Source of the DNA: Planctomycetia bacterium
GTDB lineage: Bacteria; Planctomycetota; Planctomycetia; Pirellulales; JACPPG01
Direction of reading: 5' to 3'
NCBI GenBank assembly: GCA_016191115.1
Contig: JACPPG010000026.1
Location: 1-64,000, forward strand
Length of the DNA: 64,000 nucleotides
The notes below the pieces were generated by a model. The model was not told where the DNA came from. It searched no databases and saw only the letters and a program-made list of their open reading frames with translations. Shown here one piece after another: positions 695 to 46,397 of the stretch. Made by a program: the position numbers and the translations under genes. Positions within the stretch are counted from its first letter, which is position 1. Every line of letters begins with the position of its first letter.

Positions 695-850
695 CAGGGC
701 CGTTCACAGATTCAAGCTTGCCGGCGACGCACCGGCGGGAAAGTGGGACAGGCACCGAGACGCAACGTTGGTCTGAAAGGGCTTGCGCTGTTTATGCTCG
801 GAGCCAGTCCCATTTTCCCGCCTCGCCATTTTGAAAAACAGAATGGCCGT
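695..850 (+). mobile_element. Palindromic MITE-like element, copy 1
   Basis: About 155 bp. It starts with CAGGGCCGTTCACAGATTC, has 26-bp inverted arms (734-759 and 797-822, 23 of 26 matching) around a 37-nt centre, and ends GAATGGCCGTG. It lies between two copies of GGGCCGGGCC (685-694 and 851-860), which look like a target-site duplication. There is no coding capacity. The sequence is nearly identical to the copies at 3563, 15401 (inverted) and 33796, and to the truncated copy at 46263. Confidence 0.8.
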
Positions 851-977
851 GGGCCGGGCCATGGTGCCGGGCCGCCTCAGGGCACGGCCAGCTACGCGCG
901 GGGGGCACGTACTGGCGCGTCGCCCGCACTGCGGCGCGATTGTCGAAAGACCGTGCGCGACCAACCTCAACGCCGGC

Positions 978-3396: not shown

Positions 3397-3464
3397 TGCG
3401 TTAGTGCGGATCGGATCCGCCGCTGTTCCATATCGGCCCCCCATCTGGCACAACCGCAAAGTCC

Positions 3465-3543
3465 GGGGTCTGGCTCATTTTTCGGCACATACAGTCCTCA
3501 ATTCTTCCGAAGGGACCTTCGGCCGAAAAATGTGCCTGACCCC
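3465..3543. repeat. Second palindromic repeat family (GTGCCTGACCCC type)
   Basis: Arms 3465-3486 and 3522-3543 pair over 20 of 22 bases. The two mismatches are A/T swaps that turn GTGCCTGACCCC into GAGCCAGACCCC. Inside is a second perfect small hairpin (CCGAAGG / CCTTCGG). No open reading frame fits. It ends 19 bp before MITE-like copy 2. GTGCCTGACCCC-type arms are reminiscent of REP sequences associated with RAYT transposases, but none is in the window. Confidence 0.7.
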
Positions 3544-3562
3544 CTCCCCCAGACATCTGGTC

Positions 3563-3718
3563 AGGGCCGTTCACAGATTCAAGCTTGCCGGCGGCGCACC
3601 GGCGGGAAATTGGGACAGGCACCGAGACGCAACGTTGGTCTGAAAGGGCTTGCGCTGTTTATGCTCGGAGCCAGTCCCATTTTCCCGCCTCGCCATTTTG
3701 AAAAACAGAATGGCCCTG
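3563..3718 (+). mobile_element. Palindromic MITE-like element, copy 2 (best target duplication)
   Basis: This complete copy has perfect 7-bp ends, CAGGGCC and GGCCCTG (the first C, 3562, is shared with the flanking repeat). It lies between exact 11-bp direct repeats GACATCTGGTC (3552-3562 and 3719-3729). Internal arms GGCGGGAAATTGGGAC... and ...GTCCCATTTTCCCGCC match copy 1 with one extra substitution. It has no coding capacity. Confidence 0.85.
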
Positions 3719-3940
3719 GACATCTGGTCCGGCTGTTTGCAGTCGATTTCCTTGCCCACTACCATGATATCTATTCGCAACTTGGAGCACGCCAGTGCCC
3801 GCTATCTAAAACGTGGTCCCGCGTCCATCGGCGCATTTTCTCTTTGACCACTTCCCCTTCGTTCACTGCGCCGGCTCAGCCTCGCATCCGGCGTTGCTTC
3901 GAATACGACTCGCATCGTGCATCCACAGGAGGGCCAGCTA

Positions 3941-15400: not shown

Positions 15401-15556
15401 CAGGGGCATTCTGTTTTTCAAAATGGCGAGGCGGGAAAATGGGACTGGCTCCGAGCCTAAACAGCGCAAGTCCTTTCAGACGAACGTTGCGTCTCGGTGC
15501 CTGTCCCACTTTCCCGCCGGTGCGCCGCCGGCAAGCTTAAATCTGGGAACGGCCCT
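15401..15556 (-). mobile_element. Palindromic MITE-like element, copy 3 (inverted)
   Basis: The same element in reverse orientation: CAGGGGCATTCTG at the left, AACGGCCCT at the right, with the two GTCCCA/TGGGAC arms inside. It is flanked by 13-bp direct repeats CGGGGACGAAGCT (15388-15400) and CGGGGACAAAGCT (15557-15569), which differ at one base. It sits directly downstream of porin C. Confidence 0.8.
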
Positions 15557-15659
15557 CGGGGACAAAGCTTTCCCGCGTTGACCTTGGCAAGCATCACTCC
15601 TACAATCCCACCCCTCTCATGTCGACTGGGTCGCCGACCGTGGCTCCGGGAAGCGGATC

Positions 15660-33779: not shown

Positions 33780-33795
33780 TCCGGCGTGGTTTCAC

Positions 33796-33952
33796 CAGGG
33801 CCGTTCACAGATTCAAGCTAGACGGCGGCGCACCGGCGGGAAAGTGGGACAGGCACCGAGACGCAACGTTGGTCTGAAAGGACTTGCGCTGTCTATGCGC
33901 GGAGCCAGTCCCATTTTCCCGCCTCGCCATTTAGAAAAACAGGATGGCCCTG
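33796..33952 (+). mobile_element. Palindromic MITE-like element, copy 4
   Basis: A complete copy, with CAGGGCC at the left and GGCCCTGG at the right. It lies between exact 10-bp direct repeats GTGGTTTCAC (33786-33795 and 33953-33962). Several substitutions (AAGCTAGACGG, CTATGCGCGG, TTAGAAAAACAGG) mark it as the most diverged complete copy. Confidence 0.82.
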
Positions 33953-33968
33953 GTGGTTTCACGGCGAA

Positions 33969-34066
33969 ATGACGAATGTCGAAAGCCAAATGTCTAAGCT
34001 AAAGAAATCCGAAATCCGAAGGTCGAATGACGAACGAACGCACCCCTTCGGACATTCGACATTCCT
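33969..34066. repeat. ATGACGAATGTCGA-type short-repeat tract
   Basis: This is a tract of related short words: ACGAATGTCGAAAG, AAATCCGAAATCCGAAGG, TCGAATGACGAACG, GGACATTCGACATTCC. The same words occur at 8.5 kb and 19.66-19.73 kb. They flank the stop of the PQQ propeller gene. Confidence 0.45.
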
Positions 34067-46262: not shown

Positions 46263-46397
46263 CAGGGCCGTTCACAGATTCAAGCTTGCCGGCGGCGCAC
46301 CGGCGGGAAAGTGGGACAGGCACCGAGACGCAACGTTGGTCTGAAAGGACTTGCGCTGTTTATGCTCGGAGCCAGTCCCATTTTCCCGCCTCGCCAT
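46263..46397 (+). mobile_element. Palindromic MITE-like element, copy 5 (right end missing)
   Basis: It matches the other copies from CAGGGCCGTTCACAG up to CGCCTCGCCAT, then stops at 46397; the last ~21 bp including GGCCCTG are gone. No flanking direct repeat is found. The palindromic arms are intact. A promoter-like pair begins 10 bp after the break. Confidence 0.8.

Follow-up and report, generated by a model that had tools for sequence, protein, structure and literature searches.

The element and its copies in the window

The 64-kb window (the whole stretch of DNA that was analysed, 64,000 nucleotides of a planctomycete draft genome) carries the same short palindrome several times over, which raises the question of what kind of element this is, how it moves and where its hairpin came from. 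The element, here called MITE A, is 157 bp long with ends CAGGGCC...GGCCCTG, and has no room for a transposase gene. Its copies in the window, with one copy of a second family, MITE B, are as follows.

695..851, + strand: MITE A copy 1; 3' end GGCCGTG; repeat GGGCCGGGCC before and GGCCGGGCC after, one base out of register
3449..3551, - strand: degraded MITE B, directly upstream of copy 2's 10 bp; BLAST match to B positions 19-119, 91%
3552..3561: left 10-bp target duplication of copy 2, GACATCTGGT
3562..3718, + strand: MITE A copy 2, full length 157 bp; the query for the searches
3601..3689, + strand: core hairpin of copy 2, arms GGCGGGAAATTGGGACAGGCACCGAG and CTCGGAGCCAGTCCCATTTTCCCGCC
3719..3728: right 10-bp target duplication of copy 2, GACATCTGGT
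15401..15557, - strand: MITE A copy 3, diverged, first base C to G; flanks AGCTTTGTCCCC and AGCTTCGTCCCC
33796..33952, + strand: MITE A copy 4; duplications GTGGTTTCAC at 33786-33795 and 33953-33962
46263..46397, + strand: MITE A copy 5, without the last 22 bp and without a target duplication; probably an assembly artefact

The five near-identical copies of the original prediction are all present, close to the positions first proposed, as are the 26-bp arms, and the description of a non-autonomous palindromic element encoding no protein is borne out. The 19 bp at the 5' end of A are matched five times in the window with up to three mismatches, against 0.03 expected. The direct repeats are exactly 10 bp at the copies at 3562 and 33796; at 695 and 15401 they are out of register and the ends are changed. 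The right flank of copy 4 (33953-34045) contains another dispersed repeat, GACGAATGTCGAAAGCC..., with 13 BLAST hits for this right flank in 864 kb.

Copy number and distribution

The host draft genome (G000; 6.03 Mb in 93 contigs, 94% complete) contains 343 matches to the 19-bp 5' end with up to two mismatches, against none for the reversed control. Within the stretches that were analysed, which with the window make up 2.46 Mb or 41% of the genome, BLAST gave 189 hits, comprising 117 full copies, 66 lacking one end (33 on each side) and six others; by proportion this suggests, as an extrapolation, about 460 hits genome-wide, or about 1% of the DNA. The full copies are on average 96.5% identical to their own consensus (n=117). 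Palindromes so alike, several hundred of them in a single genome, also bear on how it is assembled and rearranged.

A search with the full element found matches in 4 of 57 genomes, namely the host and three others (G015, G020 and G024) over the core or one end alone, and none of the four genomes of the same genus was matched by the full-length search; the pattern of the 3' end of A gave one weak match, with two mismatches, in the same-genus genome G004. Within the host, A is depleted in open reading frames, though present in some: by crude ORF calls, 61 of the 189 hits have their midpoint inside an ORF of at least 150 aa, and such ORFs cover 85% of the sequence.

A 10-bp target duplication

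The target-site duplication of A is 10 bp. In 864 kb, the flanking repeats of 38 of the 49 full copies match in at least nine of ten bases, as opposed to 1 of 2352 mispaired flanks, and most of the full copies are flanked in this way; with one mismatch allowed, other lengths are seen in one to three copies at 6, 9, 11 or 12 bp and in none at 7, 8, 13 or 14 bp. The range of 10-13 bp given in the original prediction is not upheld. In 1.66 Mb with 92 full copies, 61 are in register, 16 more (counted without a chance control) match in at least nine bases after an end shift of up to 4 bp, and 15 do neither. The target repeats have no common sequence apart from a slight preference for G and C at their edges.

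Empty target sites are provided by another repeat, C, of about 107 bp with inverted ends AAGGATCGACCG... In the 2.46 Mb, BLAST finds 12 uninterrupted copies of C and six sites at which A has gone into C; the insertion point is identical at five of the six (C positions 71-81), and A is found in both orientations relative to C. The uninterrupted copies displayed hold the 10 bp once (CCTCAATACC in L086, CCTCAGTACC in L087), and in the copies that A interrupts it stands both before and after A, with at most two differences. The uninterrupted copies of C show the empty target and are direct evidence that A was inserted; the proposal of transposition with duplication of the target is upheld, and the flanks are specific to each site. 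Repeat C is itself dispersed (L086:4980-5085 and L087:560-662), with inverted ends AAGGATCGACCGAAAAATAACTTC.

A is thus short, has terminal inverted repeats and many copies, and duplicates its target at sites also found empty, and it is a new family within a known kind, the MITEs. It shares with Chunjie, ERIC, QMITE1/2 and Nezha, the last another prokaryotic MITE of the same general form, a small size, the lack of a transposase gene, terminal inverted repeats and a normally intergenic position. The review PMC10969869 covers Chunjie, ERIC and QMITE1/2 and quotes as many as 711 copies of ERIC in Photorhabdus luminescens. A differs from these MITEs in its ISAs1-type 10-bp duplication, in a core held in common with stand-alone hairpins, and in sharing single 10-bp insertion sites with a second MITE family; the stacking on one target and the hairpin, probably captured, are its features of note.

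With REP, BIME and REPIN sequences A has in common an imperfect hairpin core and a bias to gaps between genes, its core is also found alone, and there are three Y1 matches in the host genome, all of which would suit a REP/BIME-type element mobilised by a RAYT (Y1) transposase. Such an origin is nevertheless highly improbable. The 10-bp duplications and empty sites are at odds with the lack of duplication expected of REP elements, A has transposon ends, and no link to a RAYT was found: no hairpin was present at the three Y1 loci, scanned over about 1.5 kb on each side for the core arms of A and B and for one other palindrome, though two single-arm matches with one mismatch occur, both at one locus. 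A RAYT/REP origin was rejected on the duplications and on these Y1 loci. The contrast with REP elements drawn in the original prediction holds as regards the flanking repeats, but the core is itself a hairpin also found alone.

Relation to the ISAs1 family

The ISAs1 family has CAGGG ends and 8-10 bp repeats, and A has both a CAGGG end and a duplication of the length found for the family in our data set. Matches to the ISAs1 transposase model NF033564 were obtained in 24 of 57 genomes, over the cut-off in 19; in the host they were confined to small pieces, all below the cut-off. Among 30 loci from this search, four (L092, L094, L100 and L115) have CAGGGC ends with perfect 10-bp repeats, and a fifth pairing, at L114, has an 8-bp repeat and poor end similarity. 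A wider set was drawn from 80 ISAs1 loci fetched with organism names, of which 76 were tested with an end-similarity threshold of at least 10 of 14 bases. The ends were recognisable at 48 loci, which do not count as independent, several being copies from a single genome, and for which the script favoured end pairs with a repeat of at least 8 bp where several pairings were possible: 27 have a perfect 10-bp repeat, two a perfect 9-bp repeat and 19 none of 7-12 bp, and no repeat length other than 10 and 9 bp appears. The view that the repeats of A fit no known family is not supported: 10 bp together with CAGGG ends is the pattern of these elements. In 864 kb of the host, all 24 of the 24 CAGGG-to-CCCTG pairs within 8 kb that have a perfect 10-bp repeat are A itself.

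The ISAs1 elements with identified ends are about 1.2-1.5 kb long and encode a transposase, in which they differ from A. What they share with A are the CAGGGC ends and, for many copies, target duplications of 10 bp; beyond CAGGGC the ends of A agree with theirs only in part. The host genome has six ISAs1 left ends, each close to the end of a contig, and their flanks differ. Among named loci, the best matches to the ISAs1 alignment, which came from relatives, belong to Planctomycetota, headed by Blastopirellula marina at 70%; ten proteins of the window gave Pfam matches of a general kind. The ends of B, CAGGAGAACTGCAAAGTC, resemble the ISAs1 end in L256, CAGGGCAATCGCAAAGTC. An ISAs1 element carrying the ends of A was sought among the 76 loci and in 864 kb of the host and not found; the ISAs1 interiors of the host draft are mostly unassembled. 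Nor did the open-access papers searched show an ISAs1 MITE of A's kind.

Some IS4 subgroups make 10-13 bp repeats, and A might on that ground be a MITE of another DDE family with a stagger of about 10 bp, such as the IS4-like groups; the interior of A and most of its end sequence do differ from the ISAs1 end present in the host (CAGGGCGATTGCGCC), which has only CAGGGC and scattered bases in common with A. Against this, ISAs1 pieces and the six left ends are present in the host, and CAGGGC ends with exactly 10 bp are the ISAs1 pattern. A DDE_Tnp_1 transposase was also sought and rejected, the draft having no PF01609 match, a weak argument since the interiors of multi-copy insertion sequences may be unassembled. 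We consider another DDE family very doubtful, and that A is a MITE of the ISAs1 kind probable, at about 80%. Counting against this assignment are the lack of an ISAs1 element with the ends of A in these searches, the 19 of 48 loci without a perfect repeat, the 15 of 92 full copies of A without a match of at least nine bases, and the weak repeats around most of the related mini-elements in other genomes.

From the ends and the duplications, mobilisation of A by an ISAs1-type system is well supported. Two short ISAs1-type ends (CAGGGCC...) would enclose a hairpin and no gene; an ISAs1-family DDE transposase would act on them in trans, and joining to a target cut with a 10-bp stagger would produce the 10-bp flanking duplications. 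We infer from this that an ISAs1 transposase moves A. Placing A, so far unassigned, in the ISAs1 family would strengthen the comparative case for a 10-bp stagger among its members.

The core hairpin

The whole of A folds end to end as a single hairpin (z -5.2 as DNA, -7.4 as RNA), with a core at about positions 33-131. Cores without ISAs1 ends occur in the host at C47:51488 (86% identical) and C83:58598 (77%); a third, at C84:68374 (74%), has no ends of its own and adjoins a copy of B, and two further host cores, at C21:24729 and C47:13344, fall below BLAST similarity. One arm, GGAGCCAGTCCCATTTT, is found with at most one mismatch in 5 of 57 genomes, the host included and no other of its genus, and the seven hairpins displayed from 15 arm-bearing loci have conserved arms and variable loops. 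The cores of A and B keep the same two mismatches (CAGGCAC vs. GAGCCAG), and the adjoining pairs differ between them (GGGAC/GTCCC vs. GGGTC/GACCC).

Conservation of arms in stand-alone cores with variable loops, and retention of the same two mismatches by A and B while adjoining pairs differ, could also mean that the core is a functional hairpin, e.g. a terminator or a protein site, which selection maintains, with the transposon only its carrier. This we regard as rather unlikely. Among 123 copies of A lying between two called ORFs, 9% are in convergent gaps (vs. 21% of all gaps) and 40% in divergent ones (vs. 23%), unlike a terminator, these being raw values from crude ORF calls irrespective of gap length. 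Rfam gave two weak matches in window positions 3400-3800, neither over threshold, and a known RNA family was rejected on that result.

Because stand-alone cores exist, the core was probably captured as a hairpin already standing in such genomes, between ISAs1 ends, as opposed to arising by internal deletion of an ISAs1 copy, although the direction, capture or loss of ends, is itself inferred. Capture, if true, would be a route to the birth of a MITE besides internal deletion.

MITE B and stacked insertions

MITE B is 124 bp long with ends CAGGAGAACTGCAAAGTCC. It has 44 end-paired copies in the 2.46 Mb, and in 26 of these nine or ten of the ten flanking bases match. In the same 2.46 Mb there are 13 A-B pairs and one A-A pair whose members are separated by 9-12 bp repeating the outer flank (on host contigs C83, C86, C47, C8, C17, C21, C24 and C55). 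Random placement of B on its contigs gives a mean of 0.03 such pairs and a maximum of two in 2000 trials; the placement ran over whole contigs, and confinement to intergenic gaps would raise the expectation somewhat. Two A-B neighbours at 7 and 11 bp (C84:68374 and C31:84099) were left out, A being incomplete and the repeat not common across A.

At nine of the 13 A-B sites the repeat is visible three times, either exactly (GCGCGCGTTG, CCGACCTGGC) or slightly changed or shifted (e.g. CGTCCAAGAG twice and CCTCCAAGAG); in the remaining four, A's outer flank has been lost by truncation or lies past the end of the stretch. Copy 2 of the window belongs to the same picture, being preceded by the degraded B, on the far side of which CATCTGG at 3442-3448 represents seven of the same 10 bp as in the flank of copy 2 (compared by eye). 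A single A-A pair was seen, a rarity that recombination or assembly collapse could explain.

The A-B pairs are most simply explained by one insertion after another into the same 10 bp, and A or B would also insert at 10 bp adjoining the other family; the arrangement itself is observed, and the choice of site is our interpretation. Either a bound end would steer the second insertion, or the target would be favoured in its own right, as in repeat C. Copies of B agree less well with their own consensus than those of A (0.931, n=44, vs. 0.965, n=117), which makes insertion of B before A the likelier order, though not a proved one. We hold only tentatively, at somewhat less than even odds, the joint proposal that a resident related element guides ISAs1-type transposition, the second mini-element going precisely into the 10-bp duplication of the first and giving the order same 10 bp, B, same 10 bp, A, same 10 bp, and that the families arose by capture of standing hairpins. 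Stacked insertions are a natural setting in which to ask whether a transposon end already present directs where the next element inserts.

A few 5'-truncated copies of A are B-A hybrids (C83:123472, C76:13002, C89:124141 and C26:66762). The outer flanks match in 9-10 of ten bases in the first three and only roughly in C26:66762, and the hybrids look like stacked pairs that have lost their inner ends by deletion.

Copies lacking one end

The fifth copy of the window had been presented as a truncated variant of the element, which is probably not biology. Of the 66 copies lacking one end, 45 keep 137-143 bp; host contigs that end in A keep 138-139 bp of it (C26, C76) or, by arithmetic from match positions, 137-140 bp (C2, C4, C11, C15), and five of six contigs ending in ISAs1 keep exactly 140 bp of ISAs1. 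These kept lengths match the overlap of an assembly with k = 141, and the truncated junctions are on that account probably mainly assembly artefacts. B, which at 124 bp is shorter than the overlap, has unpaired ends and no such cluster of lengths. End-trimming at the base of the hairpin was the first reading of the truncated copies and was set aside for the match to the k = 141 overlap.

Two counts speak against an artefact, since a plain misjoin would predict many more such 10-mers: the 10-mer of the intact side lies within 60 bp of the broken side in four of 45 truncated copies (two more were dropped at stretch ends), and beside another A end in one of 66, a tandem. At C83:157717 the two flanks are found together on a single contig in each of the genomes G001, G002 and G004, separated by 0.5-2.9 kb. 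The genes flanking the truncated copy of the window are on different contigs in these three genomes, which decides nothing because synteny also breaks at full copies with target duplications. Synteny with the same-genus genomes is too poor for a comparison of empty sites at orthologous positions. A motif, GCCTAGAATGCCGACTTGGC, that three relatives have upstream of one and the same gene is absent at C83:157859-157897 (L058:17859-17897) beside a truncated A; the host genome has one match to it with three mismatches, at C70:36398.

Related mini-elements in other genomes

Mini-elements with ends like the 3' end of A were found in 22 of the 396 genomes of the order, the host included, with 58 matches in G015. 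When 28 loci were re-read (30 minus two of the host), ten showed both ends, 82-201 bp apart. Good repeats are few among these 28: L342 matches in ten of ten bases, L339 in nine and L335 in eight, and L329 has an 11-bp repeat by eye. One locus of G015 (L034, on C242) has ends like the 3' end of A, a palindromic core TACAAGCCCGCAGCGCCAGCAAGGG... and, again by eye, an 11-bp direct repeat, GACACTCTAGC.
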